Below are positions 3,833-35,033 of a DNA stretch of 37,265 nucleotides, in pieces. Within the stretch, counting starts at the first letter, position 1; each line of letters opens with the position of its first letter. The translations under genes were made by a program, and so were the position numbers. Origin of the DNA: Acidobacteriota bacterium. GTDB taxonomy: Bacteria > Acidobacteriota > Blastocatellia > Chloracidobacteriales > Chloracidobacteriaceae. The DNA lies in contig JACQXX010000125.1 of NCBI GenBank assembly GCA_016208495.1, positions 1 to 37,265 of the forward strand, read 5' to 3'. The notes beneath the pieces were generated by a model, which saw only the letters and a program-made list of their open reading frames with translations, was not told where the DNA came from and did not search any database.

Positions 3833-3950
3833 AGGGTTCAGGGTTCAGGGTTTGGAAAGTCTGGATTCCTGGTTTGGGAAAGAGACCAAAACGACCAAAG
3901 TGATCAAAAAATCAAAAACCCTGAACCCTGAACCCTGAACCCTGAACCCC
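3833..3950. repeat. CCCTGAA heptamer inverted repeat between two genes
   Basis: The left arm (3833-3853) carries AGGGTTC units in tandem. The right arm (3916-3950) carries four CCCTGAA units, the exact reverse complement. The ~62-base loop contains further partial complements (TTTGG against CCAAA). The left arm starts 7 bases after the stop codon of the DUF5666-like gene and the right arm ends one base before the ATG of the receptor gene. RNA of either strand could fold into a stem of about 20 bp. No T-tract follows, so it is not a classic terminator. Confidence 0.85.
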
Positions 3951-3951
3951 A

Positions 3952-6882: not shown

Positions 6883-6915
6883 GGACCCAGAAGAAAATAA
6901 AATCCCAGTGAAATC

Positions 6916-7097
6916 GGGTTCAGGGTTCAGGGTTCCTAAATCCCCCCGGATTTTGTGGGATATGCTCAAAATGAAGCAAAAAGTCCGAAAAATAGCCTGT
7001 TTTGAGCTGTTTTATCTGTCACCCACAAAAATGTAGGTTAGCTAAGTCCTTTGTTTTCGATATAGGGTTTGCCAACCCACCCTGAACCCTGAACCCC
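6916..7097. repeat. Inverted CCCTGAA arms plus nested palindrome
   Basis: Outer arms are heptamer repeats: GGGTTCAGGGTTCAGGG from 6916 and ACCCTGAACCCTGAACCCC at 7079-7097. Nested inside are two further inverted pairs: ATTTTGTGGG (6950-6959) with CCCACAAAA (7022-7030), and GCTCAAAA (6964-6971) with TTTTGAGC (7000-7007). The right outer arm ends three bases before the ATG of the deacylase gene. The inner pair could act as a transcript 3'-end structure for the receptor gene, but there is no U-tract after it. Confidence 0.8.
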
Positions 7098-7774: not shown

Positions 7775-7800
7775 ACCCTGAACCCTGAACCCTGAACCCA
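7775..7800 (+). repeat. CCCTGAA heptamer tract before the Uma2-like gene
   Basis: Three and a half CCCTGAA units directly follow the palindromic element and end 11 bases before the ATG at 7812. Unlike most sites in the window, no complementary GGGTTCA arm is seen in the same gap; copy 2 of the palindromic element sits where it would be expected. Confidence 0.85.
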
Positions 7801-8699: not shown

Positions 8700-11177
8700 A
8701 TGAAATCCAAACTTCAGGTTGTGTTTTTGTTGTGTTTATTGGGAAGCTCTCTGATTATTTTTCCCACTCAATCGGTTCGAGCATGCGGCCCATTTTATGA
8801 TGAGGCGCGATTTGTCTTTACCAAACATCCTGATCATCCGCTTCACCGGTTTGCTCAGGGTGAATTGAATGTCCTCCAGCCGGGTTATGCCTGGTCCTAT
8901 TTAATCGTGGCTTATCGCTATTTCAATGGTATTGGACTTGATGAAACTGAACAGAAAGCTGCCGTGGGAAAATGGGAAACCCGATTGGGTATAACCGATG
9001 AAAGCAAGCCTGATTACTGGCTCAATCAGTGGCTTGAAGCCCGAAAAAAAGTTACTGGCATAACCAGTCCACCAACCATTTCCCAATATGTGAAGGAAGA
9101 CGAAAGTTACAGCTATCAGATTGCGATTACTGGAGATGCGTTTCATCTTGCGACCCAAACCCTCGCTGAGCGAATCAACCAGTTTGGCGCCTCCAGCCCA
9201 CAGGTTCGCGAATGGCTCAAAGCCCAGGATCAGGTGTTTCAAACCGCCAGCGGTGAAACCTCGATTCCCGACGCAGCACCAGCTTCGGTTGATCCAATGA
9301 TAAAGGCTGATCGTGCCTATCAGATTGCCGCCGCCAATTTTTACGGAAACAACTATGAAGCGGCCCTTGCTGGCTTTGATCAAATTGCAAACGATACAAA
9401 TTCTCCCTGGAAAATCATTGCCCCTTATTTGGCAATTCGGACGCTTTATCGCCAATATGAGAATCAGGATCAGAATACACCTCAACAAGATGCCGCCATC
9501 CTGAGCGATGCACGTGATCGGTGTACTAAACTTCTGGCTGATGCACAACTGAGCGAATATCACCCGGCTACCCGCCGTCTGGTGGCCGATATTCAATATG
9601 GGCAGATCGCAATTGAACTTGGAATCCCGGATTCTGAATACCTGACACCGGCACAGTTCCAGGCCCAATTCGTTGTCCTCGAACAACTCACCCTCGATGA
9701 AGCTCAAGACCTGCTGCGACCACATTCGGGCCCTGCGTTTGGGCGCAATTTGTGGAATTTCCCTGATCATTTGGACAACATCATCGAGGCCACAGCCGAC
9801 GAAAATGATCCAGTGGACGTCGTGGATTATGATCGGGTCAAACGAACCTTTGAGTCGCTTCCTGCGATTCGGTTGAAAGATGATTTGATCGACTGGATTC
9901 TGGTGTTTCAAACCATGGACAATCCAGCCAGCGATTACGCCACCCAAACCTGGGAAAAGACCAGGAAACTCCACTGGCTGTGCTCGGCTTTATCCAAAAC
10001 TACTGGAAATGCTCCGAAATTGGCGGCATTGCTATCGGCGGCTGAACAGGTACCGGCTGATTCGCCCGCTTATCCAATGGTGAGCTATCACCGCATTCGA
10101 TTGCTGATTGAAGCCGGCAAACTCGATGACGCCCGCAAGCTTCTGGCCGAATTTATGCCAACCAGAGGTACGTCATTAACCCAATCATCGTGGAACCTGT
10201 TTTCTCAACTTCAAATGCAGGCGGCAACTGGTTTGCCCGAACTCACAAAATTCATCAGTCGTCGTCCCGCAGGTATTGTCGAGGCATATGATTATTATCA
10301 AATTTCAGCCGAATTTGGATCAAACTACTCTGATAGTCCAGAGTCAGTCAAATACAGGCAAGAACGGTTGGAAAAGGAAAAACAACCGCTCTTTGACACG
10401 CCAGCGTCTCGGATACTCAACCAGGGATTGCCACTCAGTCTGCTCGGAGAAATAATTCAGAATTCAACCCTCCCAAAACATCTACGCCGGGATCTGGCAA
10501 TGGTGGTTTGGGTGAAAGCCGGGTTACTTGAAAATCGGAAGATTGCAACCCGGGCATCGCGTGTGGTTGGCAAACTGGTTCCAGAATTAAAAAACCTGAC
10601 AGCGGCCTATCGTTCGTCAAAATCATCCGCGAAAGCCAGATTTGCGCTTATTTTCGCGGTGCTTCGGTTTCCAGGGCTTCGCCCGCATATCGTGGCTGGG
10701 GTACCCCGGCCTAAGCGACTCAGTAAAATTGATGGCCATCGTGACAACTGGTGGTGTGCATTTGACACCAGAGGAGAAGTCTCAGCCCAAAGTTATGAAA
10801 AATACAATGGCAACGGCCTGAATGAGGAATATGGCCCCGATGGGTCTCCGCTTCCTCAACCACCATTTGACCCGGCCAAAGCGTTTTACCCACCTGCTTT
10901 TTTAACGACTTCCCAGAAAGAGGCAGCCTTCGATGAATGGAAAGCACTGGTGGCCATTGGAACAGCACCCAATTATCTGTGCCGCCAGACGATTGATTTT
11001 GCCCGAAAATACCCACGGGATCCGCATGTTCCTGAAGCGCTGCATCTGGCAGTTCGGTCAACCCGGTATGGATCTACGGATGACACAACCACGGATTTTT
11101 CAAAAGAAGCCTTCCTGCTTCTCAAAAAGAAATACCCCAGGACTCATTGGGCCCAGAAGACGAAATATTATTTTTAA
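8700..11177 (+). CDS. Large secreted 'CGP' protein, cassette copy 1
   Basis: An 825-residue exported protein of unknown function. A signal peptide (VVFLLCLLGSSLIIFP) is followed by RACGPFYDEARFVFTKHPDHPL, so the mature protein probably starts near the ACGP motif. The rest is alpha-helical with paired-helix segments reminiscent of TPR-like repeats (for example DRAYQIAAANFYGNNYEAALAGFDQIA at about 205-230) but no standard domain is recognised. The cysteine pair in CGP and the late APNYLCRQT is shared with copy 2. ATG 8700 has AAGAGG at 8687-8692. It aligns end to end with the 12064 gene, sharing blocks such as DPMIKADRAYQIAAANFY and EWKALVAIGTAPNYLCRQT. Its third codon positions look more AT-rich than copy 2. 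Confidence 0.85.
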   Translation: MKSKLQVVFLLCLLGSSLIIFPTQSVRACGPFYDEARFVFTKHPDHPLHRFAQGELNVLQPGYAWSYLIVAYRYFNGIGLDETEQKAAVGKWETRLGITDESKPDYWLNQWLEARKKVTGITSPPTISQYVKEDESYSYQIAITGDAFHLATQTLAERINQFGASSPQVREWLKAQDQVFQTASGETSIPDAAPASVDPMIKADRAYQIAAANFYGNNYEAALAGFDQIANDTNSPWKIIAPYLAIRTLYRQYENQDQNTPQQDAAILSDARDRCTKLLADAQLSEYHPATRRLVADIQYGQIAIELGIPDSEYLTPAQFQAQFVVLEQLTLDEAQDLLRPHSGPAFGRNLWNFPDHLDNIIEATADENDPVDVVDYDRVKRTFESLPAIRLKDDLIDWILVFQTMDNPASDYATQTWEKTRKLHWLCSALSKTTGNAPKLAALLSAAEQVPADSPAYPMVSYHRIRLLIEAGKLDDARKLLAEFMPTRGTSLTQSSWNLFSQLQMQAATGLPELTKFISRRPAGIVEAYDYYQISAEFGSNYSDSPESVKYRQERLEKEKQPLFDTPASRILNQGLPLSLLGEIIQNSTLPKHLRRDLAMVVWVKAGLLENRKIATRASRVVGKLVPELKNLTAAYRSSKSSAKARFALIFAVLRFPGLRPHIVAGVPRPKRLSKIDGHRDNWWCAFDTRGEVSAQSYEKYNGNGLNEEYGPDGSPLPQPPFDPAKAFYPPAFLTTSQKEAAFDEWKALVAIGTAPNYLCRQTIDFARKYPRDPHVPEALHLAVRSTRYGSTDDTTTDFSKEAFLLLKKKYPRTHWAQKTKYYF

Positions 11178-11266: not shown

Positions 11267-12067
11267 ATGAAAAAACCGTTCCTGATTCTGCTCGCTCTGG
11301 TGCTCGTTGCCGCCGGAGCGAGTTTTTTGTTTTCGCGTAAAAACATAAAAAACCAGAAAAGTTTTTCGGTTGATTGCCAAAAACCCCGAATCCAGGCAAT
11401 TCCCCGTCTGATGCTCTGGGCCTGGGAACGCCCCGAAGACCTTCGGTTCCTTGACCCGGCCCAGGCAGGTGTGGCCTATCTGGCGGCAACCTTGACATTG
11501 TCGGGTGATGGGGTTGCGGTTCGTCCACGATTACAACCGCTCAAAGTGCCTGCGGGAGCCTATATCATGACCGTGGTGCGCATTGAGGTGGATTCAGAGC
11601 ACGCTCCAACCCGAAGCGAAGCACAGCGCCAACAAACCGTGGCCGAAGTCCTCAAGGCCATGAAATCGCCAAATGTCGCCGCACTCCAGATTGATTTTGA
11701 TGCCAGACAATCGGAACGTGACTTTTATCGTGCCCTGCTGACTGACCTGCGGGCCAACCTTCCAGAAACCATGCCGCTGGTGATGACGGCACTGGCATCG
11801 TGGTGTTTGTTTGATGACTGGATTCACGACCTGCCAGTGGATGACGTCGTCCCGATGGTTTTTCGAATGGGAAAAGACACGGAAAACGTCGTGAAGTTCC
11901 TTGCATCCAACCAGTCCTTTCGGTCAAAGTTGTGCGGATGCAGCGTTGGTGTCGCCCTCGACGAACTTCGTCCCGAAATTCCGACCAACCGGCGTGTGTA
12001 CGCATTTAATCTTCGATCCTGGACGCCGCAACAATTCAAGTTTTTTTCAGAAAAGGTAAGGCAATGA
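11267..12067 (+). CDS. DUF3142 family exported protein
   Basis: A 266-residue protein with an N-terminal membrane or signal segment (PFLILLALVLVAAGASFLF). It carries the DUF3142 signature: PRLMLWAWERPEDLRFLDP near residues 45-63, then GVAYLAATLTLSG, then VRPRLQPL, a VVRIEV strand and a late ALQIDFDARQSERDFYRALL helix-strand. The family is often found in environmental bacteria and looks like a TIM-barrel-type domain; its function is not established. Its stop overlaps the next start as ATGA (12064-12067), so the two genes are likely translated together. This is the intact second copy of a cassette whose first copy of this gene has decayed at 8326-8699. Fold and function are inference. Confidence 0.8.
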   Translation: MKKPFLILLALVLVAAGASFLFSRKNIKNQKSFSVDCQKPRIQAIPRLMLWAWERPEDLRFLDPAQAGVAYLAATLTLSGDGVAVRPRLQPLKVPAGAYIMTVVRIEVDSEHAPTRSEAQRQQTVAEVLKAMKSPNVAALQIDFDARQSERDFYRALLTDLRANLPETMPLVMTALASWCLFDDWIHDLPVDDVVPMVFRMGKDTENVVKFLASNQSFRSKLCGCSVGVALDELRPEIPTNRRVYAFNLRSWTPQQFKFFSEKVRQ

Positions 12068-14550
12068 AATCCAAGCTTCAGGCCGTGTTTTTGTTGTGTC
12101 TCTTGGGTGTGTCACTGGTGGTCTTCCCGCCGCAACCGGTCCGGGCCTGCGGGCCGGACTTTGGCACTGCCCGCTTTATATTTACCAAACATCCTGATTT
12201 TCCGCTTCGACGGTTTGCACGAGGCGAACTCAACGTCCTGCAACCAGCTTATGCCTGGTCCTATTTGATCGTCGCGTATCGCTATTTGAACAGTATCGGC
12301 CTGGACGAAACTGAACAGGAAGCCGCCGTTGCCAAATGGGAGGCCCGACTTGGCATCAGTCAGGAGAGCAAAAGTGACTACTGGCTCAACCAATGGCTCG
12401 ACGCTCGCAAATCAGTGCCAAATGCTCCGGCCAATCCCAAAGTCGTTGAATTCATCAAAGATCCCGATGGATATTCATCCAAAGTCGCGGTTTCCGCTGA
12501 AGCCTTTCAGGTTGCGATTCGGACGCTGAACGAACGGGCCAAACAATTTGGCGCCAGCAGTCCGCAGGTTCGCGAATGGCTCACCGCCCAGGATCAGGTC
12601 TTTCAGACCGCCAGTGGTGAGCCAGCGATTCCATCAGAACCTGCCGCCTCGCTGGACCCGATGATAAAGGCTGACCGCGCCTACCAGATTGCCGCCGCCA
12701 ATTTCTATGCCGACGAACACGACCTGGCCGTCAAAGGCTTTGACCAGATTGCCAAAGACGGCAAATCACCCTGGAAAATGATTGCTCCGTATCTGGCGAT
12801 TCGGACACTAAATCGAAAATTCGAGAAACAGATTCAGACAACGCCTGAAGAGCAGGCCAAACTCTTTGGAGATATCCGCGACCGGAGCGCCAAAGTACTG
12901 GCTGACAAACAGTTGAGTGAATACCACACGGCGACGCGACGCTTGCTGGCGAATGTTCAGTTGACCGAAATCGCGGCTAAAAAGACTGGAAGCGAACCAG
13001 ACAGCACACCAATCCCAGAACAGGAACAGGCTGAAATTGCCGTGTTGGAATCGCTGACACTCGATCTGGCACACGATCTGCTGAGGACACATTCAGGACC
13101 TAATTTTGGTCGGAACTTGTGGATGTTTCCAAACCGGCTCGATGACGTCATTGAAAAAACAACCCCAGATGAAGAGTACTGGGACGCGGTGGATTTTGAC
13201 CGGGTCAATCGGAAATTTAAGTCACTGCCGGCCATTCGGCTCAAGGATGACCTGATTGACTGGGTGCTGGTTTTTCAAACGATGGATGACGCCGCCAACG
13301 ACTATGCCGTCAAAACCTGGGAAAAGACCGGGAAACTCCACTGGCTGTGTGCTGCTTTAACCAAAGCCGCTGGAGATTCACCAAAACTGGCCAATCTGAT
13401 TTCAGCCGCCGAACGAGTTCCGGCTGATTCACCGGCCTACACGATGACAACCTACCATCGCCTTCGATTGCTGGTTGAAACCGGTAAAATAGACGACGCT
13501 CGCAAAATACTGGCTGACTTTATGAAAACCAAAGACGGCACGTTGACTCAATCAACCGCGAATCTGTTTTCACAACTTCAGATGCATACGGCCACCAGCT
13601 TGACCGAACTGGCCAAATACCTTGGCCGCCGTCCGGCAGGCATTACCGATTCCTTTGATTTTTCCCAGTTGTCGGCTGATTTTATACCAGTGTACCCGGA
13701 CTCGCCGGAATCAGCAGACTTCAAGAAACAACGACTGGAAGATGAAAAACAAGTGCGTTTTGACGTCCAGGCCGGGCGCGTCATCAATCAAGGGCTGCCG
13801 CTGAGTCAGCTTGGCGCACTTCTTCAAGACACCTCGCTCCCCAAAAATCTGCGTGGGAATCTGGCGCTGGCCGTTTGGGTCAAAGCCGGGTTGCTTGAAA
13901 ACCGTGACGTCGCCACCCAGGCATCACTCGTGGTTGACAAACTGGTACCGGAACTCAAAGAAATGACCTCGGCCTATCGGGCGGCCAACACCGCGCCGGA
14001 AGCCAAATTTGCCCTGATTTTCGCCGTGCTGCGCTTTCCTGGCTTGCGCCCGCATATTGTGAACGGCCTGGAACGCACAGAAACACTCGACACAATTGAC
14101 AGTTATCGCGATAACTGGTGGTGCAACTTTGACGGCAAACTCGAAGTCTCGACCGGGAATTTTGAGAAGTTCAACTACTATGATCCCGATCAAGAATACG
14201 GCCCCGACGGCGAGCCAAAACCCAAACCACAAGTGCCGTTTGATCCAGCCAAAGCGTTCTTCCCGCCAGCCTTTTTGACGGCTGAACAAAAGGAAGCCGC
14301 CTTTAAAGAATGGAAAGCCCTGGTCGCGATTGGAACCGCACCGAACTACCTCTGCCGCCAGACGATTGACTGGGCGAAGAAAAATCCGACCGATGCGCGG
14401 GTGCCCGAAGCCCTCCATCTGGCAGTGCGCACCACGCGGTTTGGCTGTACCAATGACACCACGACCAATCTTTCCAAAGAAGCCTTCCAGCTTCTGAAAA
14501 AGAAATACCCAACTGATCCCTGGGCGCAGAAGACGAAGTACCATTATTAG
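12064..14550 (+). CDS. Large secreted 'CGP' protein, cassette copy 2
   Basis: An 828-residue paralogue of the 8700 gene, with the same layout: signal peptide (AVFLLCLLGVSLVVFPP), RACGPDFGTARFIFTKHPD, long helical body and C-terminus KKYPTDPWAQKTKYHY. It shares the QPAYAWSYLIVAYRY motif near residue 60 and the IRLKDDLIDWVLVFQTMD motif in the middle. No known domain was recognised; the repeated short helices suggest a TPR-like solenoid. Likely periplasmic or surface-exposed. Its ATG overlaps the stop of the DUF3142 gene (ATGA) and AAGGTAAGG lies just upstream, which supports a shared mRNA. Compared with copy 1 its codons look more GC-rich, more like neighbouring genes. Confidence 0.87.
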   Translation: MKSKLQAVFLLCLLGVSLVVFPPQPVRACGPDFGTARFIFTKHPDFPLRRFARGELNVLQPAYAWSYLIVAYRYLNSIGLDETEQEAAVAKWEARLGISQESKSDYWLNQWLDARKSVPNAPANPKVVEFIKDPDGYSSKVAVSAEAFQVAIRTLNERAKQFGASSPQVREWLTAQDQVFQTASGEPAIPSEPAASLDPMIKADRAYQIAAANFYADEHDLAVKGFDQIAKDGKSPWKMIAPYLAIRTLNRKFEKQIQTTPEEQAKLFGDIRDRSAKVLADKQLSEYHTATRRLLANVQLTEIAAKKTGSEPDSTPIPEQEQAEIAVLESLTLDLAHDLLRTHSGPNFGRNLWMFPNRLDDVIEKTTPDEEYWDAVDFDRVNRKFKSLPAIRLKDDLIDWVLVFQTMDDAANDYAVKTWEKTGKLHWLCAALTKAAGDSPKLANLISAAERVPADSPAYTMTTYHRLRLLVETGKIDDARKILADFMKTKDGTLTQSTANLFSQLQMHTATSLTELAKYLGRRPAGITDSFDFSQLSADFIPVYPDSPESADFKKQRLEDEKQVRFDVQAGRVINQGLPLSQLGALLQDTSLPKNLRGNLALAVWVKAGLLENRDVATQASLVVDKLVPELKEMTSAYRAANTAPEAKFALIFAVLRFPGLRPHIVNGLERTETLDTIDSYRDNWWCNFDGKLEVSTGNFEKFNYYDPDQEYGPDGEPKPKPQVPFDPAKAFFPPAFLTAEQKEAAFKEWKALVAIGTAPNYLCRQTIDWAKKNPTDARVPEALHLAVRTTRFGCTNDTTTNLSKEAFQLLKKKYPTDPWAQKTKYHY

Positions 14551-14620
14551 GGTTTGGGGTTCAGGGTTCGGGGTTCAGGGTTTTTGAAGGGTGAAGGATG
14601 AGCAATTGTCCTTTACCCTT
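14551..14620 (+). repeat. GGGTTCA-type repeats and hairpin after the duplicated cassette
   Basis: Bases 14551-14583 hold GGGTTCAGGG-type units directly after the stop codon. A hairpin follows: AAGGGTGAAGGA (14587-14598) against TCCTTTACCCTT (14609-14620), one wobble pair, 10-base loop, then TTTT. The outer TTTGGGG and CCCAAA could extend pairing. This may serve as a transcription terminator for the cassette, though the T-run is short. Confidence 0.6.
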
Positions 14621-14655: not shown

Positions 14656-14868
14656 ATGGAATTTCGAATTGAAGCCAAAATTGAACCAAATGGGACAATC
14701 GTTTTGCACGACCTCCCTTTTCACGAAGGTGATAAAGTGATGGTTGTCATCACAACTCGTCCTGACAATTCATCCCAAAGTTCAGACTATTCCTTGCGAG
14801 GATTACCCGTGGAATACAAAGACCCGTTTGACCCTGTAGCTGAAAATGATTGGGGGGTTTTGTCATGA
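14656..14868 (+). CDS. Small antitoxin-like protein (uncertain)
   Basis: A 70-residue protein. ATG 14656 is chosen over TTG 14650 because GGAGGG at 14641-14646 lies nine bases from it. The first half (IEAKIEPNGTIVLHDLPFHEGDKVMVVIT) is a small beta-rich unit of the type seen in AbrB-like or DUF104/AF2212-like antitoxins. The second half has the LRGLPVEYKDPFDPVAENDW motif, recurrent in short bacterial proteins encoded just ahead of another small gene. Its stop overlaps the next start (ATGA). If it is an antitoxin, the partner would be the membrane protein at 14865 or the 15379 product, neither of which resembles a known toxin, so the role is open. Confidence 0.55.
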   Translation: MEFRIEAKIEPNGTIVLHDLPFHEGDKVMVVITTRPDNSSQSSDYSLRGLPVEYKDPFDPVAENDWGVLS

Positions 14869-15416
14869 TCTTAAAAATTACCTCAACTTCAAAAGTTCGA
14901 ACTCTTCTCACATTTGGTCTGCTGGATGCCCTTTTTATGTGGTGTCTTTTTCTGATTCCGGTTTTGGTGGTGGCGGTGTTGAGTGGGCAACATCTTCAGA
15001 GTGACCTGCCACGTTTTCTTCAATTGTACTGGCCGGTTTGCCTTTTTCTGGCTTTTCCAATCTCAGTGCTCACTGCCTGGCGAGGGGCGCTGGACGCGTT
15101 TCGAACCCAGCGTGGCAAGGGGTTACCAGCCAGAGCCGTCGCTGAGGGCTTTATCCTTGGAATGGGCTATGCCGTTGTTTTCTTTACCTTTGGATATGTT
15201 CAACAGGTTTTGGCTGCAGGTACGATTTATGACGAAGTGACAGCACAACCCACCAATCCCTGGGCCTGGGCGAAACTCCTTGCGAGTATACTGCCATATA
15301 GTTTTTTATGCGGTATAGCAGGCAGTTGTTTAGGGCTTTTGATTCACGAGTTAAACCGGTCATTGATCGGAGGTGTGGATGGGATATTCCATCGAAAAAT
15401 TGAAACGACCTTATGA
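14865..15416 (+). CDS. Four-helix membrane protein of unknown function
   Basis: A 183-residue inner-membrane protein. ATG 14865 overlaps the previous stop by four bases. Four hydrophobic segments are visible: LLTFGLLDALFMWCLFLIPVL, LYWPVCLFLAFPISVLTAW, GFILGMGYAVVFFTFGYVQ and ILPYSFLCGIAGSCLGLLI, with a basic loop (RTQRGKGLPARAV) between the second and third. No family was recognised. It overlaps the following gene by 38 bp, so all three genes 14656-15885 are probably one transcript. Confidence 0.7.
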   Translation: MILKITSTSKVRTLLTFGLLDALFMWCLFLIPVLVVAVLSGQHLQSDLPRFLQLYWPVCLFLAFPISVLTAWRGALDAFRTQRGKGLPARAVAEGFILGMGYAVVFFTFGYVQQVLAAGTIYDEVTAQPTNPWAWAKLLASILPYSFLCGIAGSCLGLLIHELNRSLIGGVDGIFHRKIETTL

Positions 15417-15885
15417 CTACAAAGTGCTGGTGGAGGCGTATGTCCGAACTCAACGAGAGGATTATGTTCACCCGGATTTTGCTGCCTATTATCAAAGCCT
15501 TTGTGCTGTGTTGGAAAAGCAATTTGAGGTTCGCTTTTCCGCTGAATACTTCTCTGATTCAAAAGCGGCGTTGTGGATGTTGTTTGAATCAACGGTTGGA
15601 TCTTTGCTCCGAATTACAACTCCCTGGGATGCTTTTCTTGAAGAAACCCTGATTGTCTCCACATTACAAAAAAGCGGAAACGCTGGAAAAAGAATAGACC
15701 AGGCCAGTCAAACCATCTTGCAAGCAACCAGAGAGAGCCGGCAGGCTCATTTAGAGATATTGCACGAACTGTTCGCCCTGATGTATAGCAAAACCGATGT
15801 GATCATTACTTCTGAACAACTTGCACTGGTCGGGTTTGATGATTCACAAGAACCTGACATCAGGGACTATTATGATGACTTTTAA
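15379..15885 (+). CDS. Uncharacterised soluble protein, third gene of overlapping trio
   Basis: A 168-residue helical protein without membrane segments and with no recognised family. ATG 15379 is preferred over GTG 15373 because GGAGG at 15369-15373 stands five bases before it. The coding region begins 38 bp inside the membrane-protein gene. The C-terminus is strongly acidic (DSQEPDIRDYYDDF). A central WDAFLEETLIVSTLQK and a later RESRQAHLEILHELFALMY suggest amphipathic helices. Its genetic coupling to a membrane protein and a small antitoxin-like protein is the only hint about its role. Confidence 0.7.
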   Translation: MGYSIEKLKRPYDYKVLVEAYVRTQREDYVHPDFAAYYQSLCAVLEKQFEVRFSAEYFSDSKAALWMLFESTVGSLLRITTPWDAFLEETLIVSTLQKSGNAGKRIDQASQTILQATRESRQAHLEILHELFALMYSKTDVIITSEQLALVGFDDSQEPDIRDYYDDF

Positions 15886-15927: not shown

Positions 15928-15974
15928 AAACCCTGAACCCTGAACCCCAAACCCTGAACCCCAAACCCTATTTT
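15928..15974 (+). repeat. CCCTGAA/CCCCAAA heptamer tract before the CatA-like gene
   Basis: Tandem units CCCTGAA, CCCTGAA, CCCCAAA, CCCTGAA, CCCCAAA and CCCTATT run to within seven bases of ATG 15981. They create an apparent upstream coding extension of the acetyltransferase that is only translated repeat. No complementary arm was found between the previous stop codon and the tract. Confidence 0.85.
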
Positions 15975-16637: not shown

Positions 16638-17171
16638 ATGGAGTACAAGTGTATGTTGAAGCAACTCACCCAGAAACCTCTGCGGCCAGCTACCAGGCGT
16701 TGTCTCCTCATCGGCTGGTCAGTATTGATTGCCGTCACGGCTACGCTGGGAGCACTCCATTACGAAACAAATGTCAAAGCTCGAAAAGTGGCGGTGTGGC
16801 TTTCCCGCACCAAACCTGGTGTCTATTCCCACCACATTGATTGGGCTCAGATGGATCCGGTAACGCTGGTTAAGGCACTTCACCAATGCCCGCAAATAGT
16901 TGTGACTCCGGCATCTCAACCACCAGCTTTTTGGATGAAACCCCACCACAAGCTGTACCTGTTCTTTTTGATCAATTCCACTGAGTCATCAGCTCACATC
17001 AATGACGTGTTATGCAGTTTAAATCCCCAAGAACGTACAACTACCAGAGAGGTAGCCTGGTATTTGGTCAATGAATTTGGGATTGGCAAAGCACCAACTC
17101 GGATGGTTACTCCACGCAAAGGGATGGTTCCGATATATCCAGGCGCTTCTCAGCCTGGAAATCGGGAATAA
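16638..17171 (+). CDS. Single-helix membrane-anchored protein
   Basis: A 177-residue protein of unknown family. GAGGG at 16626-16630 lies seven bases before ATG 16638, and the start is only three bases past the acetyltransferase stop, so the two genes are probably cotranslated. A single hydrophobic segment (CLLIGWSVLIAVTATLGAL, about residues 22-40) anchors the protein, with the remaining ~135 residues probably outside the cytoplasm. That part contains HHIDWAQMDPVTLVKALHQC and a proline-rich end. Position suggests a link to the acetyltransferase, but no motif supports one. Confidence 0.65.
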   Translation: MEYKCMLKQLTQKPLRPATRRCLLIGWSVLIAVTATLGALHYETNVKARKVAVWLSRTKPGVYSHHIDWAQMDPVTLVKALHQCPQIVVTPASQPPAFWMKPHHKLYLFFLINSTESSAHINDVLCSLNPQERTTTREVAWYLVNEFGIGKAPTRMVTPRKGMVPIYPGASQPGNRE

Positions 17172-17977: not shown

Positions 17978-18023
17978 GAAAAGGACGAAAAGGACATAAG
18001 GGACGGAAAAGAAGTCAGGAAAA
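17978..18023 (+). repeat. Left arm of repeat flanking the four-helix-bundle gene
   Basis: GAAAAGGACGAAAAGGACAT and following AAGGGACGG units lie 50-95 bases before the four-helix-bundle gene. They are complementary to the TATGTCCCT tract at 18651-18700 on the other side of that gene, so the gene sits between inverted copies. Confidence 0.75.
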
Positions 18024-18072
18024 CCCTGATCCGGGCTTGTCCAGGAAGTCCTTTTAAGAAGAGAGGTCTCAC

Positions 18073-18642
18073 ATGCCCAAAGGGTTTATTCCAAAACACG
18101 GTGGCTATCAAAAACTGCTTTCCTACCAGAAAGCTGAGATTGTCTATGATGCCACGGTGTATTTTACTCGGCGCTTTTACCGAATCGGCGACCGGACGAT
18201 TGATCAGATGGTCCAGGCCGCCCGTTCCGGAAAACAAAACATCGCTGAAGCCAGCCTTGCATCAGGGACTTCGAAAGAAACCGAGATCAAACTCACCAAT
18301 GTTGCCCGCGCCAGTTTGGAAGAACTCCTGATTGACTACCGTGACTTTCTGAGAACCCGAAATCTCGATGAATGGTCACCTGACCACTCCTACACCCGGC
18401 GATTGCGCGAACTCAACCGCCAGCCTGACGCAACATTTGAGACCTTTCGCAAAGGAATTGAGCACCCGGATCCAGCCATTTCAGCCAACGTCATTGTCGG
18501 ACTGATCAAAGTCACCTGCTTTTTGCTGGACCAGCAACTCAAAAAACTGGAACAGGAATTTCTCAAAAAAGGCGGCCTTCGCGAGCGGATGACTCAGGCC
18601 CGAATTGCAGCCAGAAATACTGGCCTAAAAAAGTCCAACTGA
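18073..18642 (+). CDS. Four-helix-bundle protein with suffix domain (23S rRNA intervening-sequence protein family)
   Basis: A 189-residue protein. The core resembles the S23/IVP four-helix-bundle proteins first found inside intervening sequences of 23S rRNA genes: LSYQKAEIVYDATVYFTRRFY, IDQMVQAARSGKQNIAEA, SKETEIKLTNVARASLEELLIDYRDFL. The N-terminal MPKGFIPKHGGYQKL and the C-terminal helix ending in RERMTQARIAARN fit the variant usually named 'four helix bundle suffix domain' protein. The pentameric family is thought to bind nucleic acid; its role outside rRNA is unknown. No rRNA gene is nearby. The gene is flanked by inverted repeats (17978-18023 and 18651-18700), reminiscent of the stem that flanks rRNA intervening sequences. 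Confidence 0.88.
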   Translation: MPKGFIPKHGGYQKLLSYQKAEIVYDATVYFTRRFYRIGDRTIDQMVQAARSGKQNIAEASLASGTSKETEIKLTNVARASLEELLIDYRDFLRTRNLDEWSPDHSYTRRLRELNRQPDATFETFRKGIEHPDPAISANVIVGLIKVTCFLLDQQLKKLEQEFLKKGGLRERMTQARIAARNTGLKKSN

Positions 18643-18650
18643 CTTTCCTC

Positions 18651-18700
18651 AAAAGTCTTTATGTCCCTTATGTCCCTTATGTCCTTTATGTCCTTTTTTG
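18651..18700 (-). repeat. Right arm of repeat flanking the four-helix-bundle gene
   Basis: CTTTATGTCC, CTTATGTCC, CTTATGTCC, TTTATGTCC units in near-perfect 9-10 base tandem directly after the four-helix-bundle gene. The reverse complement (AAGGGACATAAGGGACATAA) matches the left arm at 17978-18023. It lies between two convergent genes and could form the 3' end of either transcript; T-rich runs exist on its + strand. Confidence 0.8.
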
Positions 18701-23915: not shown

Positions 23916-24046
23916 AGAGTAGCGAAAGAGCGAGTAGCGAGAAAGAGCGAGTAGCGAGATAGCGAGTAGCGAGTAGTCTAGGAGCCAAAGCACTATTCAC
24001 TCTTCACTCTTCACTCTTCACTCTTCACTATCTCGCTATTTCACTC
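23916..24046. repeat. GCGAGTA / CTCTTCA tandem arms between two genes
   Basis: The left arm (23916-23978) begins at the stop codon of the HEAT-repeat gene and contains GAGTAGCGAGA-type units in 7-base phase. The right arm (23991-24046) has five TTCACTC heptamers followed by TATCTCGCTATTTCACTC. Read in reverse complement, the right arm gives GAGTGAAATAGCGAGATAG, matching the left arm with mismatches. The two arms are separated by only ~12 bases, so a long imperfect hairpin is possible. Confidence 0.8.
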
Positions 24047-30211: not shown

Positions 30212-30270
30212 GTCAGTCGTCAGTCGTCAGTCGTCAGTCGTCAGTCGTCAGTCGTCAGTCGTCAGTCGTC
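30212..30270 (+). repeat. Perfect GTCAGTC heptamer array
   Basis: 8.4 uninterrupted copies of GTCAGTC directly follow the receptor stop codon. Complementary-type units (CTACTGACTAC) occur at 30379-30390 and 30460-30502, with a C/T change in each unit. Perfect tandem heptamers of this length are prone to slippage, so the copy number may vary between cells. Confidence 0.95.
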
Positions 30271-30378
30271 GAGTGTTAGGATTTTGAAGCGCCTGTCAAG
30301 TGTATTTGGTTCTTTTTGAGTCATTTGCAAAGAGTTCTTTTCAAGGTCTGTGCAAACTGAAATACCTGGGTTTGGTCT

Positions 30379-30507
30379 ACTGACTACTGATACCATTTTG
30401 GAATGAAGCTATCGTATTAGGGAACAGTCAAGTAATTCAATCAATTGAATTTAGTGAACTACTGACTACGATCTACTGACTACAAACTGGTATGACTACT
30501 GACTTCC
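30379..30507. repeat. ACTGACTAC arms and dispersed repeat, copy B
   Basis: Contains TACTGACTACTGATACC at 30379, then ATACCATTTTGGAATGAAGC (30390-30409), then GAACAGTCAAGTAATTCAAT (30422-30441), then TACTGACTAC units with an inverted TGGTAT at 30488-30493. The GAACAGTCAAGTAATTCAATC stretch recurs at 37021-37043 with two changes. The rest of the 30206-30658 gap shows nothing recognisable apart from a ribosome-binding site at 30646-30650. Confidence 0.6.
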
Positions 30508-30658: not shown

Positions 30659-32179
30659 ATGTCACAGAGTTTTAAGCATTTGCGGATGGGTTTCACATTT
30701 TACTTTTGTTTTTGTCTCCTGACAGGTTTAGGCGTCTTCGGAAAGCCAGTTGCCGTTCTGGCACGCCAGGGAAACGCTCTGGCGCCTCCTTCTGGGTTAA
30801 CGGCACGTCAGACCGGAAGCCAGGTTGTTTTAAACTGGCAACCCCCCGATTTAAGCCGCTTTTCAACCGAACTTGCAACCCTTCGGCAAGCACCAGTTGC
30901 GGAAACTGAGCCAAATAACAGCCAGACCCAGGCCCAATCAGTATCATTGAATTCGATTGTCAGCGGCAGGGCCGAAACATCTGATACCGGTCAGTATGTC
31001 CTGGCACTGGCTGATGGTTCCAGCGATGATTTCGAAGATGTCTTCAAGTTTACTTTGACCGAGGCCAAACAGGTCTCGATCAAACTTGAATACACTGAAG
31101 AAGATGCTGATCTTGACGTGTGGCTCCTGGCCAATGATGCCCGGTTGACGATTCTGGATGACGACGGAGCGACCCAGGATAACCCGGAGCTGACACTGGT
31201 TGATCTTGATCCGGGAACGTACTTGATTGCCGTTTCGACCTTTGAGCCCGGCCCACCAACTCCGGCTGAAAATTCAGACTACCAGTTGACAATTTCAACC
31301 TCTGACTCTGGAACACCCCAACTTGACAGCTTCAATATCTACCGCGCTGAAAGCACCACCGTCCCGTTGACCCGTGAATTTCTGGTTGGGAATGTCCTGG
31401 CTGACACAACTCAGTTTATTGATACGCCACAGGGTGGAGATGGCCGAACCTCCTATAGCTACGTTGTAACGGCTCTCTATGACACAGGTGAAAGCGCGGC
31501 TTCAAACACAGTATCTATTGCGTTTAGCACTGATCGTACAACACCTACAGTTCGGGTTTCGTCACCAAATGGAGGTGAAACAGCCTCCGCTGGAAGCCCC
31601 CTCAATATCACCTGGACAGCCACCGACGACATTGGCGTTACCAGCCAGGAAATATCCCTTTCAACCGACGGCGGCACCACTTTTCCAACCTCAGTGGCAA
31701 CAGGACTTTCTGGAAATACCAGTATCTTTACCTTTCCAATTCCCACCACTTTGCGTTCGACTTCGGCCCGGATCCGGGTTGTGGCCCGTGATGCGGCTGG
31801 AAACGAAGGCTCTGACACCAGCGATGCCAGTTTCACCATTGGCGGAGCAGATGCCATGCCGCCAACGGTGCGGCTCATTTCACCTAATTCCAAATCAGAC
31901 AAGTTAAGAGCCGGCCAATCCTTCCTCGTTCAATGGCAATCGTCTGACAATAGTGCACTTGCCAGCCATGACTTACTGCTCTCGACAGATGGCGGTGCCA
32001 CCTTTGCAACCACCATCGCCACTGGTCTTCCAGGGTCAGCCCAAAGTTTTTCATTTGCGGTCAGCGCGACCCAACCCAAATCCAAAACGGCTCGCATTCG
32101 AGTGATTGCCCGTGATGCGGCTGGAAACGCGGCTCAGGATGACAGCGACGAAAACTTCAAGATCAAGAAAGCGAAGTAG
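30659..32179 (+). CDS. Secreted FN3/PPC/Ig-like protein
   Basis: A 506-residue exported protein. The signal peptide (FTFYFCFCLLTGLGVFG) is followed by the first strands of a fibronectin type III domain (APPSGLTARQTGSQVVLNWQPP, about 42-63). A PPC-type beta domain comes next (AETEPNNSQTQAQ, then DVFKFTLTEAKQVSIKLEY, DADLDVWLLAND, GTYLIAVST; about 80-212). The rest of the FN3 domain follows (LDSFNIYRAES ... TSYSYVVTALYDTGESAASNTVSI, about 220-288). Two Ig-like repeats finish the protein (VRVSSPNGGETASAGSPLNI to RIRVVARDAAGNEG, and VRLISPNSKSDKLRAGQSF to RIRVIARDAAGNAA). The PPC domain is often found next to secreted peptidases, but no catalytic domain is present. AAGGA at 30646-30650 precedes ATG 30659. 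Likely a surface or matrix protein. Confidence 0.85.
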   Translation: MSQSFKHLRMGFTFYFCFCLLTGLGVFGKPVAVLARQGNALAPPSGLTARQTGSQVVLNWQPPDLSRFSTELATLRQAPVAETEPNNSQTQAQSVSLNSIVSGRAETSDTGQYVLALADGSSDDFEDVFKFTLTEAKQVSIKLEYTEEDADLDVWLLANDARLTILDDDGATQDNPELTLVDLDPGTYLIAVSTFEPGPPTPAENSDYQLTISTSDSGTPQLDSFNIYRAESTTVPLTREFLVGNVLADTTQFIDTPQGGDGRTSYSYVVTALYDTGESAASNTVSIAFSTDRTTPTVRVSSPNGGETASAGSPLNITWTATDDIGVTSQEISLSTDGGTTFPTSVATGLSGNTSIFTFPIPTTLRSTSARIRVVARDAAGNEGSDTSDASFTIGGADAMPPTVRLISPNSKSDKLRAGQSFLVQWQSSDNSALASHDLLLSTDGGATFATTIATGLPGSAQSFSFAVSATQPKSKTARIRVIARDAAGNAAQDDSDENFKIKKAK

Positions 32180-32505
32180 CGCAGGAAAGCGAGTAGCGAG
32201 TGGCGAGTAGCGAATAGTCAATCAATTCAACATTATCGTCAGTCAAATCCTTGAGCTTAAGTACCTTACCGAAAATTTCCAGACATTTTGAACCACGAAA
32301 CACACGAAATACACGAAAAGAATCAAATACTTACCAAATCCAATATCTCAGGAAATTTATGACAAGGTACTTACTTCGCATGAATTTCTCAAAGCATGAG
32401 GATCTTTTTCTGACTACTCGCTACTCGCTACTCACCACTCGCTACTCTTGCTATCTCGCTCGGCTGGATTGACTCCTCGCTCCTCGCTCCTCACCACTCG
32501 CTCCC
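32172..32505. repeat. GCGAGTA inverted arms and related tandem repeats
   Basis: The left arm (32178-32220) has GCGAGTAGCGAGTGGCGAG and ends in AATAGTCA; it starts at the stop codon of the FN3/PPC gene. The right arm (32411-32460) has CTACTCGCTACTCACCACTC and reads in reverse complement as GAGTGGTGAGTAGCGAGTAG, ending in the same TAGTCA. A further block of CTCCTCG units lies at 32472-32505. Between the arms, 32290-32322 has ACACGAAATACACGAAA-type tandem units. Confidence 0.85.
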
Positions 32506-32638
32506 TTTGTTGCCTGCCCCAAACCGTCCTCGCTATTCCTCAATTCAAAAAACTGATATATAAACCGGCTCTTTCGGCTTTGGTGTTTTGAACACTCAAG
32601 GCTTGCTGGTCATCATCATTTTTATTGAGGAATTTTTT

Positions 32639-33811
32639 ATGTCTTTTGTGTATGGAGTTTTGGGCGCTGGTCGCCAGGGCACAGCGTCAGGGTATGATAT
32701 TGCACGGTTTGGCGATGCCGAAGCCGTGATTATGGCTGATTCCAATGGAAGAGTGGCTGAAGAAAGCGCTGCCCGAATCAACCGCCTTGTGGGCAAAGAA
32801 ATTGCCCGTGGCGTGGAACTCAATGCCAAAGATCCAGCCGCGGTGGCCGCTTATTTTGAGCCGCTGGATTCTTGTGTCAGCGCGATTCCTTATTTTCTCA
32901 ACTTTGAAGCCACCAAAGCTGCCATTGCTGCCAGATGCCATTTTTGCGATATGGGCGGCAATACGGGCGTGGTGATGCAGCAACTTGGGTTGCACGAAGA
33001 CGCCGCTCAGGCCGGCGTTTCAGTGGTTCCGGATTGCGGTGTCGGCCCGGGAATGATTTCCAATCTGGCCGTCTACCTCGCCGAACAGTTTGAAGTGGCC
33101 GAAGATATCCTCATTTATGACGGCGGATTGCTCCAGCAGCCCCGACCTCCGTTTAACTTCGCGTTGTTCTTTAACATTGAAGGATTGACCAACGAATACT
33201 GGGGAGATGCGCTGTACCTGGTTGATGGCAAGGTTAAACCAACGGCCTGTTTTGCTGATGATGAATATGAACTGATTGAAATTCCGGGCCTTGGGACCTT
33301 TGAAGCTTTTGTAACTTCAGGCGGCCTTTCGACAATGGTTCCAACCTATGAGGGAAAACTCAAAACCCTGAAAAATAAAACGTTACGCTATCCTGGGCAT
33401 GTGGCACTGTTTAAAGGACTACGTGACATTGGGTTGTTTAATCTGGATCCGATTGATGTTGGTGGTGTGTCGGTTGTACCGCGTCAGGTGCTCCATACAC
33501 TTCTGGATCCGAAGATTGCCCCTCTTCCTGAAGACAAAGATATGATGGTCATTCATATCGTTGGCCGGGGTCAAAAAGGTAGCGCCCAGGCTGAAATCCA
33601 TCTGGATATTGTTGACCGACTTGAGGAAACCACCGGCTTTTATGCCATGGAACGCATGACCGGATTCCACGCTGCCATCGTGGCGCAAATGATGGCACGC
33701 GGAGAAGTCGCCCAGGGTGCCGTTTCCCTGGAAAAAGCAGTCAACGCCACTCGAATGGTTGAAGAAATGGCCAAACGCGACATGACCGTCACCCTCACTC
33801 AGGTGAAATAA
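32639..33811 (+). CDS. Saccharopine dehydrogenase-family enzyme, L-lysine 6-dehydrogenase-like
   Basis: A 390-residue NAD(P)-binding enzyme. ATG 32639 has GAGG at 32627-32630 and starts the Rossmann motif VYGVLGAGRQG (GxGxxG at residues 9-14). Downstream are CHFCDMGGNTGV and VVPDCGVGPGMISNLAVYLAE, seen in saccharopine-dehydrogenase-like proteins and in lysine 6-dehydrogenase, which converts lysine to the allysine/piperideine form. The substrate domain holds EAFVTSGGLSTMVPTYEGKLKTLKNKTLRYPGHV, a conserved block of this group. Length fits the ~385 residues of the known enzymes. The next gene on the same strand is a threonine-dehydratase-like enzyme, so amino-acid degradation is a reasonable context. 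Exact substrate remains inferred. Confidence 0.8.
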   Translation: MSFVYGVLGAGRQGTASGYDIARFGDAEAVIMADSNGRVAEESAARINRLVGKEIARGVELNAKDPAAVAAYFEPLDSCVSAIPYFLNFEATKAAIAARCHFCDMGGNTGVVMQQLGLHEDAAQAGVSVVPDCGVGPGMISNLAVYLAEQFEVAEDILIYDGGLLQQPRPPFNFALFFNIEGLTNEYWGDALYLVDGKVKPTACFADDEYELIEIPGLGTFEAFVTSGGLSTMVPTYEGKLKTLKNKTLRYPGHVALFKGLRDIGLFNLDPIDVGGVSVVPRQVLHTLLDPKIAPLPEDKDMMVIHIVGRGQKGSAQAEIHLDIVDRLEETTGFYAMERMTGFHAAIVAQMMARGEVAQGAVSLEKAVNATRMVEEMAKRDMTVTLTQVK

Positions 33812-33819
33812 GATCGGAA

Positions 33820-33945
33820 GAATGAAGAACAAGTGGTTAGTGATTAGTGATTAGTGGTTAGAAATCAATACTTTCAACGAAGAACCAAGAACCAAAAACT
33901 AATCACTAACCCCTAACCCCTAACCCCTAACCCCTTTCTTCATCC
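33820..33945. repeat. GGTTAGTGATTAG / CCCCTAA inverted repeat
   Basis: The left arm (33820-33861) reads GAATGAAGAACAAGTGGTTAG followed by TGATTAG units. The right arm (33896-33945) reads CTAATCACTAAC then four CCCCTAA units and CTTTCTTCATCC. In reverse complement the right arm gives GGATGAAGAAAGGGGTTAGG, so even the non-repeat flank (ATGAAGAA) is matched. The loop is ~35 bases. It starts 8 bases after the dehydrogenase stop codon. Confidence 0.9.
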
Positions 33946-33974
33946 AGTTTTATCTCAATTGGTTCCAAAGCTTT

Positions 33975-34988
33975 ATGAATTTTTTAAGTGAATTTTCGAC
34001 CGGGCGTTTTGAGCGTGCGCATCAGCGGATTGCATCTTTTGTCAGGCATACCCCGCTCTTACCTGCGCCGTTGCTGCAAGAGAATGTTCCAGGCAATCTG
34101 ATTTTGAAACTTGAGAACCTGCAAATCAGTGGATCATTCAAAATTCGAGGTGTTTTCAATACACTGCTTCAGTTGAGCGAGTCTGAACGGCAACGCGGTG
34201 TCATCACGGCTTCAGGTGGAAATCATGGTGTGGCGCTTGCGATTGGGGCTCACAAACTTGGGATTCGCTGCCTGGTGTACCTTCCAGCAACTGCCGATGA
34301 TGATCGGGTCAAGCGGGTTGAACGATGGGGTGCCAGGGTGATCAAACATGGCCTTGCCTGGGACGACGCCAATGTCCAGGCGCTGGTTCACGCCGAACAG
34401 GAAAACATGACCTATGTTCACCCGTTTGATGCCATTCAGACGATTGAAGGCCAGGGCACGCTTGGACTTGAGCTTCTGGATGATGTTCCGGATGTTGATT
34501 GTGTGCTGGTGGCAATTGGCGGAGGCGGGTTGATTTCTGGTGTGTCAACCGCCATCAAGTTGAAAAAACCTGAGGTTCAGATCATCGGGGTGGAACCGGT
34601 CGGAGCGCCTTCGATGTTGGAAAGTATGAAAAATGGAGCGGTGAGGAAATTATCGGAAGTACGTACCGTGGCTACCACTCTTGCGCCGAGAAGCGTCAGC
34701 GAACGAACTTTAGCACTCTCTCAACACTTTGTAAATCAAATAGTTCTGGTCACCGATGACCAGATGCTGGATGCAATGCGCTGGCTCTGGGTTGAATGCA
34801 ACCAGCTTGTGGAACCGGCTGGGGCCGCTGTCATGGCAGCCATTTTTTCCGGTGACTTCCCGGTTGACCGCTTCAAAAAACCAGTCGCGTTGATTTGCGG
34901 CGGCAATGCTGACGCAGAATCAGTCTTTACCACGTATTCGTCCTCGTTTTCACCACAGAGGACGCAGAGGAACACAGAGGCAGAATGA
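33975..34988 (+). CDS. PLP-dependent threonine/serine dehydratase-like enzyme
   Basis: A 337-residue fold-type II PLP enzyme related to threonine ammonia-lyase (catabolic type), serine racemase and threo-3-hydroxyaspartate ammonia-lyase. The PLP lysine is K56 in SGSFKIRG. The phosphate-binding loops are ASGGNHG (79-85) and GGGGLISG (181-188), and the last strand ends in ALICGGNADAE. It lacks the C-terminal ACT/regulatory domain of biosynthetic IlvA. The final ~15 residues (SFSPQRTQRNTEAE) come from a dispersed tandem repeat (34951-34985), so the natural stop was probably lost or moved. It sits about 160 bp after the lysine dehydrogenase-like gene. Exact substrate cannot be fixed by eye. Confidence 0.88.
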   Translation: MNFLSEFSTGRFERAHQRIASFVRHTPLLPAPLLQENVPGNLILKLENLQISGSFKIRGVFNTLLQLSESERQRGVITASGGNHGVALAIGAHKLGIRCLVYLPATADDDRVKRVERWGARVIKHGLAWDDANVQALVHAEQENMTYVHPFDAIQTIEGQGTLGLELLDDVPDVDCVLVAIGGGGLISGVSTAIKLKKPEVQIIGVEPVGAPSMLESMKNGAVRKLSEVRTVATTLAPRSVSERTLALSQHFVNQIVLVTDDQMLDAMRWLWVECNQLVEPAGAAVMAAIFSGDFPVDRFKKPVALICGGNADAESVFTTYSSSFSPQRTQRNTEAE

Positions 34989-35033
34989 TCTTCTGGATTT
35001 CTCTGCGATCCTCTGTGTCCTCTGTGGTTCAAA
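34951..35033. repeat. CACAGAGGA inverted repeat overlapping a gene end
   Basis: The left arm (34951-34985) has 9-base units CACAGAGGA, CGCAGAGGA, ACACAGAGG and codes for the enzyme's last residues. The right arm (34994-35033) has CTCTGCGATCCTCTGTGTCC and TCTGTGGTTC, which read in reverse complement as ACCACAGAGGACACAGAGGA. The loop is under ten bases. It lies between convergent genes. Similar CACAGAGG motifs are, from general memory, common in intergenic DNA of environmental bacteria. Confidence 0.9.

Follow-up and report, generated by a model that had tools for sequence, protein, structure and literature searches.

Inverted pairs of tandem heptamer arms in an Acidobacteriota genome: putative IVS-like mobile elements built around a four-helix-bundle gene

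Background

Here we report that the inverted pairs of short tandem arrays lying between the genes of an Acidobacteriota bacterium are probably mobile elements of the kind found as intervening sequences (IVS) in ribosomal RNA (rRNA), together with the remains of such elements. In its complete form the putative element would consist of a G-rich arm of 7-9 bp tandem units, an open reading frame (ORF) and a complementary C-rich arm, the ORF presumably encoding a four-helix-bundle protein of about 120-190 aa from the 23S-rRNA-IVP/S23 family. This complete architecture is found repeatedly, both across many bacterial phyla and on plasmids of cyanobacteria. The repeat unit, hereafter the word, and the enclosed protein tend to covary, and gene-bearing and ORF-less pairs have words in common and, for one word in one genome, part of the core as well. 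One site is filled, carries a footprint or is empty among congeners, and arm pairs, together with one whole element, are also found inside a long open reading frame. The gene within the arms, the breadth outside rRNA and the link between word and protein are new here.

The analysis started from one stretch of 37,265 nucleotides (the window, C125:1-37265) of the host genome G000, which comprises 8.38 Mb in 177 contigs. Genome-wide statistics come from a host sample of 1.22 Mb (61 stretches, window included) and from 0.76 Mb (40 stretches) of G001, a genome of the same family and a different genus. Genes in both samples were called with a simple in-house caller. The densities given below may be somewhat high because stretches were picked partly via matches to the word AGGGTTC on contigs.

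Results

Arm pairs within the window

The original prediction placed matched inverted arms at eight sites in the window, and TRF indeed reports tandem arrays at these positions. For each stretch the best ungapped inverted pair was compared with 500 dinucleotide shuffles of the same stretch. Six of the eight sites hold up, with 0/500 shuffles reaching the observed score: 3833-3950 (score 21), 6916-7097 (18), 17978-18700 (20, the arms being about 660 bp apart and enclosing an ORF), 32172-32505 (21), 33820-33945 (15) and 34951-35033 (19). The pairing at 23916-24046 is weak (an 11-bp inverted match at most, reached by 15/500 shuffles) because GAGTAGC-like units on the left face mainly CACTCTT units on the right. 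At 30212-30507 the ungapped test finds no inverted match (score 7, 460/500 shuffles), because the left units are GTCAGTC and the right units complement GTCAGTA, one base per unit being different. A wide pair at 14548-14582 and 15936-15970, with an unshuffled score of 32, was absent from the predicted sites (Table 1).

The gap at 6916-7097 contains a dispersed sequence that recurs in L018 and beside the gene-bearing element L124, and the spacer after the left arm at 33832 belongs to the largest dispersed spacer cluster. Rfam over the whole window gave 0 matches at the gathering score, and a tRNA search of the window returned none.

Table 1 Arms, arrays and the enclosed gene in the window
Feature	Position	Strand	Basis or remark
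Left arm, AGGGTTC units	3833..3853	+	TRF, inverted test
Right arm, GAACCCT units	3916..3949	+	TRF, inverted test
Left arm, GGGTTCA units	6916..6935	+	TRF, inverted test
Right arm, TGAACCC units	7079..7096	+	TRF, inverted test
ACCCTGA array immediately preceding a gene, its gap having no listed left partner	7775..7799	+	TRF
Left arm of wide pair, AGGGTTTGGGGTTC units	14548..14582	+	Score 32 with 15936-15970
Right arm of wide pair	15936..15970	+	Pair encloses at least 2 listed ORFs (14850-15416, 15373-15885)
Left arm of gene-bearing element, GAAAAGGAC-type 9-bp units	17978..18011	+	TRF; inverted match 18672-18697, 0/500
Putative four-helix-bundle gene, 189 aa, kin of 23S rRNA IVP / S23, '4helix_suffix' domain	18073..18642	+	NCBIfam
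Right arm of gene-bearing element, CTTTATGTC units	18657..18697	+	TRF, inverted test, RNA stem
Left array, GAGTAGC-type units	23917..23973	+	TRF; weak inverted match, 15/500
Right array, CACTCTT units then CTATCTCGCTA	23991..24038	+	TRF, inverted test
Left array, GTCAGTC x8.4	30212..30270	+	TRF; partner units one base off, no match in inverted test
Right array, ACTACTG-type units	30458..30507	+	TRF (30458-30483), sequence
Left arm, AGCGAGT units	32188..32220	+	TRF, inverted test
Right arm, CTACTCG units	32411..32447	+	TRF, inverted test
Additional right-type array, CTCCTCG units	32473..32504	+	TRF
Left arm, AGTGATT/AGTGGTT units	33832..33861	+	TRF, inverted test
Right arm, ACTAATC/CTAACCC units	33898..33935	+	TRF, inverted test
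Left arm, ACAGAGGA-type units, overlaps PALP gene end	34952..34979	+	TRF, inverted test
Right arm, TCCTCTGTG units	35001..35028	+	TRF, inverted test

Other repeats and genes of the window

A dispersed repeat of about 160 bp with its own inverted ends (CATAAGCCCCAGGATAAG) occupies positions 602-777; scoring 40 of 343 candidates located 34 near-full copies outside the window. On inspection it looks like stretches close to Y1 transposase genes and is perhaps REP-like. Positions 1-141 are identical to the ends of five contigs (C30, C119, C137, C155 and C39), so a multi-copy repeat breaks the assembly there. A palindromic, non-tandem intergenic repeat (AAGTTTAGAGTTCCGCCTTCAGGCGG) lies at 17170-17277, and similar CCGCCTTCAGGCGG motifs occur in gaps of G001. 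The adjacent ORFs 8700-11177 (825 aa) and 12064-14550 (828 aa) look like paralogues with similar starts; a Pfam search of the former returned no match.

Genome-wide pairing, polarity and spacers

Pairing within gaps is far above that of shuffled gaps. Among gaps of 40-800 bp, pairs scoring at least 15 occur in 157/544 in the host genome and in 101/381 in G001, compared with 0 shuffled gaps in either genome and with 23 and 19, respectively, when arms were drawn across gaps. Arms of one gap are thus more complementary to each other than to arms of different gaps, and the presence of the pattern in a relative rules out assembly error as its source. In the first 431 kb of sample, the 231 array pairs lying in one gap comprise 37 inverted, 10 direct and 184 unrelated pairs, while arrays from different gaps are inverted in 2.8% and direct in 2.8%. 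Period 7 is found in 159/264 intergenic arrays of this portion versus 7/80 coding arrays.

That the unit differs at each site, as originally proposed, is not quite the case. Words recur, and 35 AGGGTTC-type arrays are present in the same 431 kb. Across the genome, AGGGTTC x3 gives 954+772 matches (at most 1 mismatch, overlapping registers counted) and the reversed-pattern control gives 0; the triple word is present in 5/39 genomes searched, own included and G001 being one of them. Two other genomes, G015 and G031, have 7 matches each to the reversed control, and CTTGGGA may be a tandem word there.

Pairs with loops of at most 12 nt (22 here, 4 in G001) resemble ordinary hairpins. Wide pairs, estimated by extrapolation at about 900 in the host genome, have a strong polarity: the left arm is G-richer in 127/135 host pairs (C-richer in 3, equal in 5) and in 86/97 G001 pairs (C-richer in 6, equal in 5). 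For clearly tandem arm pairs the G-rich arm is on the left in 56/56 here and 51/52 in G001 (107/108 together). As a palindrome is identical on both strands, this polarity is a property of the structure and not of gene direction.

A further copy of the spacer is present in the sample for 92/135 wide pairs here and for 23/97 in G001. Recurrence in G001 depends on the word, being 9/15 for AGGGTTC and 6/8 for AGTCTTGGG, and 0/19 for AATTGAG and 2/19 for ACTGAGG. A single universal core was considered and rejected on the basis of spacer clustering, which yields 15 clusters and leaves 124/232 spacers single.

A gene of the four-helix-bundle family inside the arms

The protein encoded between the arms at 17978-18700 matches NCBIfam TIGR04258 (E 1.1e-20) and TIGR02436 (E 1e-5), both above cut-off, and reaches 22.6 bits against Pfam PF05635, under the cut-off of 33.8. 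PF05635 is above cut-off for 6/8 matches in the host genome, and the family profile A1, from which the window protein was left out, matches the structures 2gsc (4e-39) and 2rld (3e-17). For the divergent window protein, AlphaFold gives an all-helical model with a pLDDT of 68; searching structures with this low-confidence model yielded nothing in the PDB at E<=0.001. When the window element is folded as RNA, its two arms form one terminal stem that closes around the ORF in both the MFE and the centroid fold, with z -8.8 (20 shuffles).

All eight PF05635 matches in the host genome are accompanied by 7-9 bp arrays, six on both sides and two, near contig ends, on one side; at one of the six, L123, divergence of the arms keeps the pair below the threshold of the inverted test (score 11). 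The family is present in 40/58 genomes, own included, and in 0/14 control genomes. Among 29 loci, one per genome, a flanking pair scoring at least 14 occurs in 23, mostly with 7-9 bp units and with many words. When the ORF ends are taken as borders, 23/31 loci (four host loci included) are flanked, the left arm being G-rich in 22:1. Ordinary genes of 300-750 nt used as controls are flanked in 5/205 cases here, one of them the window gene itself, and in 3/124 in G001.

A phylum scan with a 15-sequence alignment against genome contigs named the best 80 of 589 loci; this set is non-exhaustive because of that selection and because the pattern requires the NIAEG motif. Within the best 80 of 589, 53 of the 76 testable loci (4 are cut) are flanked, 48 with the G-rich arm on the left and 5 not, versus 2/177 control windows taken at these loci. 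They come from Planctomycetota, Pseudomonadota, Chloroflexota, Bacteroidota, Bacillota, Acidobacteriota, Gemmatimonadota, Kiritimatiellota, one cyanobacterium and others. Two archaeal loci are among the best 80 of 589: one is cut and the other, L213, has a score of 13, just under threshold. Nine additional loci, picked from the 58-genome survey, are flanked in 9/9 cases (G-left 7, not 2). On cyanobacterial plasmids 8/10 loci, chosen from 43 match records, are flanked, and the two failures have shorter arrays on both sides.

Pooling all distinct ORFs, 96/128 lie inside inverted arms compared with 3/237 control windows (Fisher p 1.5e-55, for loci that are phylogenetically non-independent). This count takes in the nine additional and the plasmid loci; an ORF was excluded if it lay close to the end of a contig or locus (7 cases) or was a duplicate (1 case). 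The 96 flanked ORFs have polarity 87:8:1, with the G-rich arm on the left in 87, and period 7 in 79, 8 in 13 and 9 in 4. The remaining 32/128 ORFs are without arms at threshold, L123 and the archaeal L213 included. The surroundings of some plasmid elements are distinctive: four-helix-bundle elements lie between cas6 and cas4 on two cyanobacterial plasmids (L329, L331) and between two ribonucleotide reductase genes on a Nostoc plasmid (L325).

Words, parents and ORF-less derivatives

Word similarity follows protein identity (Mantel r 0.126, p 0.001), an effect that is weak overall because most words differ. Similar words are found in 28% of 18 protein pairs at 60-80% identity, in 2/4 pairs above 80% and in <1% of 2955 pairs below 50%. 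AGGATTC-type words are common to Chitinophaga, two Betaproteobacteria and one Acidobacterium.

The three commonest ORF-less words of the host genome have a gene-bearing or fragmentary parent. Parent words there are AGGGTTC, AGTAGTC, AGGTGAC and, as a fragment, AGTGGTT, and the words with a gene-bearing or fragmentary counterpart are AGGGTTC, AGTGGTT, AGTAGTC and AAGGTGAC. For AGTAGTC the likeness extends beyond the arms, as ORF-less spacers match the inner right end of the gene-bearing element L125 with E down to 8e-9. AGCGAGT (9 pairs) and AAGAATG (5 pairs) have no parent among the 8 host matches, a search in which a divergent parent below the PF05635 cut-off, as the window protein is, could be missed.

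For G001, the gene-bearing arms at 5/9 matches examined are of the ACTGAGG, AGGGTCT, AGTCTGGGG, AGGGTGAC and GCTTTCA types, with ACTGAGG, AGGGTCT and AGTCTGGGG as parent words. The commonest ORF-less words of this genome are ACTGAGG, AATTGAG, AGGGTTC and AGTCTTGGG. AATTGAG (19 G001 pairs) has no gene-bearing parent among the 5/9 G001 loci examined and is the largest exception to the parent-word pattern.

Insertion sites and relatives

At the L137 site of genus g13 the element is present in G042 and G082, a footprint of two units in G051 and 12 nt in G059. Of the 13 other genomes compared at this site, 1 is filled (G082) and 1 has just the two heptamers left (G051); arms are missing in six with 12-138 nt, of which G059 is the shortest, and five have inserts of other kinds of 547-734 nt. 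The latter (L313, L316, L318, L321, L323) differ from each other and look gene-like by eye, marking the site as an insertion hot spot. No target-site duplication is evident at the L137 site, the sole filled/empty site read. At the L131 site, as judged from coordinates only, a gap of about 50-90 nt replaces the element in many relatives.

The pair G004 and G005 (about 94% identical) allows orthologous arms to be compared directly, and the differences are of entire 7-nt units. In 9/10 compared regions the arrays occupy the same positions with differing unit numbers, and thus little recent movement has occurred there; at one 232-bp difference a remnant of the right arm is left in G004. Both genomes contain a long ORF (1470 aa in G004, 1935 aa in G005), which by its motifs may be methyltransferase-like. 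Several arm pairs and, in another frame, an entire gene-bearing element lie within this ORF without interrupting it. The arms are read as peptides such as EASGEWRVASG and PLATRHSPLA, and the words involved are open in all frames on both strands. Over a 200-kb stretch, the G005 ORF has one in-frame arm pair beyond those of G004; in G004 the ORF breaks off at an arm region that its G005 counterpart reads through, so the frame is not always kept. A separate insertion in G004, absent in G005 (L240-L249 joined, 33337-34762), appears by eye to be of the IS605 type with tnpB, and a heptamer arm pair lies between its end and tnpB.

Discussion

Putative mobile elements and their remains

These observations are best accommodated by arm pairs that are probably IVS-like mobile elements and what is left of them. 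Most pairs of the window would then be ORF-less, non-autonomous or decayed derivatives, and single arrays would be leftovers. A multimer of the four-helix-bundle protein may recognise its own word in DNA or RNA and, together with host enzymes, make the element spread, with slippage afterwards altering copy number. We propose that the arms of a site match because both arrive as one unit, and that the coexistence of several families makes sites differ. A more tentative suggestion, somewhat less likely than not, is that spread is driven by the four-helix-bundle protein itself through word-specific binding. Counted against the element reading are the steep ratio of 8 genes to about 900 extrapolated pairs, the AATTGAG pairs, which have unique spacers and no parent among the loci examined, and the polarity exceptions (8/96). 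The 32/128 ORFs without arms, the lack of an evident target-site duplication at the site read and the shared array positions in G004 and G005 also count against it.

The mechanism originally proposed was local: template-switch (quasipalindrome) correction together with slippage would make the arms and keep them matched, with no mobile element involved. Its slippage component fits the whole-unit copy-number differences between orthologous G004 and G005 arms and the varying heptamer number in Coxiella (PMC4990558), and the unique AATTGAG and ACTGAGG spacers also speak for local formation. Correction by template switching is unneeded, however, and leaves unexplained the G-left polarity, the identical words at many unrelated sites (the AGGGTTC-type arrays above), the enclosure of one protein family (96/128) and the covariation of word and protein across phyla; we consider it decidedly improbable as the source of the pairs. 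A role as RNA structure at gene ends, also raised at the outset, would make the pairs selected terminators, RNase III processing sites or stabilising stems, with the four-helix-bundle gene regulating them. Left arms do start early in the gap (at a median of 23 nt here and 13 nt in G001), and five ORF-less stretches fold with z -3.9 to -10.3, alongside -8.8 for the gene-bearing one. Convergent gaps are clearly enriched in G001 (19/59 versus 2/67 divergent) but not significantly here (7/78 versus 4/85, p 0.35). As pairs also lie within long open reading frames and the gene family is scattered over phyla with differing words, selected RNA structure is unlikely to be the primary explanation, though the arms may have some RNA role at gene ends.

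Mobilisation in trans is a further way to account for dispersed palindromes, and REP/REPIN-like repeats moved by Y1 (RAYT) transposases are the obvious model. PF05635 counts track Y1_Tnp counts over 58 genomes (Spearman 0.67), and some words contain GTAG, the REP tag according to the title of PMC3733652. Both counts rise with genome size (genome size at 0.50), 2/40 family-bearing genomes are without Y1 and 6/18 family-free genomes have four or more Y1. Inverted flanks are present at 7 of the 16 Y1 loci examined, none of them, by eye, with 7-9 bp tandem units. Y1 as the mobilising agent is therefore rather improbable; given the correlation of 0.67, a helper role for it is possible. Telomerase-like repeat addition at both 3' break ends before joining would give G-rich heptamers, G-left/C-right arms, filler spacers and no duplication. 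The polarity, the unique spacers of two words and the lack of an evident duplication at the site read agree with this scheme, which is nevertheless very improbable: other words have conserved cores, one gene family is enclosed, and reverse transcriptase is uncorrelated with the family (rho 0.15), 12/25 genomes with five or more copies being without an RT match. Reverse transcriptase as a necessary partner of the family is likewise unsupported (rho 0.15, p 0.26, 58 genomes; 20/40 family genomes without an RT match).

Returning to mobile elements as the preferred reading, a wider form of it can be put forward. One minimal class, consisting of a four-helix-bundle protein and word-matched tandem heptamer arms, may be spreading through bacteria and perhaps archaea, the protein multimer reading a heptamer 'address'. 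It would be the common source of 23S rRNA IVSs, of the Xanthomonas and cyanobacterial heptamer repeats, of the IVP genes in cas operons and of the ORF-less hairpins that number hundreds per genome in certain lineages, with stop-free words permitting in-frame seats in proteins. We hold this to be a serious possibility, slightly short of evenly balanced. If true, several heptamer repeats so far described one by one would have a single origin, and the IVP genes that occur beside cas4 and cas6 (PMC3936711) would be simply explained. Should one element with a word-specific protein be spread over the whole chromosome, its mobility could be tested directly in natural multi-copy systems. A literature search in which subscription journals were little covered found no publication joining heptamer arms with PF05635 genes outside rRNA, and none tying the Coxiella 23S IVS heptamers to the Xanthomonas GGGAATC pairs.

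Comparison with known systems

REP/REPIN with RAYT and MITEs resemble the pairs in being small, palindromic and intergenic and in presumably depending on a protein that acts in trans. Here, in contrast, the arms are tandem arrays, the enclosed protein is a four-helix-bundle protein and no known transposase such as the parent of a MITE would encode, and no duplication is evident at the one filled/empty site read; at the 16 Y1 loci the Y1 gene is not flanked by the same repeats, as it would be for REP/REPIN. The Avd protein of diversity-generating retroelements is said to resemble PF05635, with a structural alignment suggesting homology (PMC10053308); unlike Avd, the family here has no reverse transcriptase association (58 genomes).

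Intergenic heptamer arrays recurring in distant phyla are known from cyanobacterial STRR and from the TAACTGA repeats of Beggiatoaceae (PMC4679880). Tandem heptamers between genes, which define STRR, are present here as well (the period-7 intergenic arrays above), whereas TAACTGA arrays are reported as 169 direct and 1 indirect and lie mostly upstream of start codons (PMC4679880). The paired-arm layout had been thought to be without parallel; this is wrong, as Rehm et al. 2015 described 70 and 75 inverted GGGAATC array pairs in two Xanthomonas genomes (PMC4692102). These and the Nostoc GGGGA(C/T)T arrays are intergenic tandem heptamers, their G-rich strand being the sense strand up to 50 bp from a stop and the antisense strand up to 50 bp from a start (PMC4692102). 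For one word, both the pairing and the preferred side had thus been described in Xanthomonas. That work differs in treating the arrays as G-quadruplex repeats, generally apart from mobile elements, and the portions of that source available to us make no link with a four-helix-bundle gene and give few paired repeats for Nostoc (PMC4692102).

A close likeness is to the rRNA IVS, whose mobility, with the ORF as mobility factor, has been suspected since Ralph and McClelland 1993 (cited in PMC4990558), although such elements continued to be seen as an oddity confined to rRNA. IVP ORFs also occur in 16S and 23S rRNA insertions of CPR bacteria (PMC11270868). RNase III cuts the IVS of the Coxiella burnetii 23S rRNA, which belongs to a type with proposed mobility and has GACAGAT heptamers in strain-variable number before an S23p ORF (PMC4990558). 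The elements described here differ in occurring as multiple copies in a genome, placed between protein genes or within them, in their many ORF-less relatives and in having tandem-array arms on both sides; Rfam places none of those scanned inside rRNA (0 matches in the window and in 20 gene-bearing loci, L131-L150). Like the rRNA IVS, they are 0.4-0.7 kb long, with terminal inverted repeats that close an RNA stem around an ORF of the same S23p/IVP family (TIGR02436/TIGR04258), and with tandem heptamers in variable number ahead of that ORF (PMC4990558).
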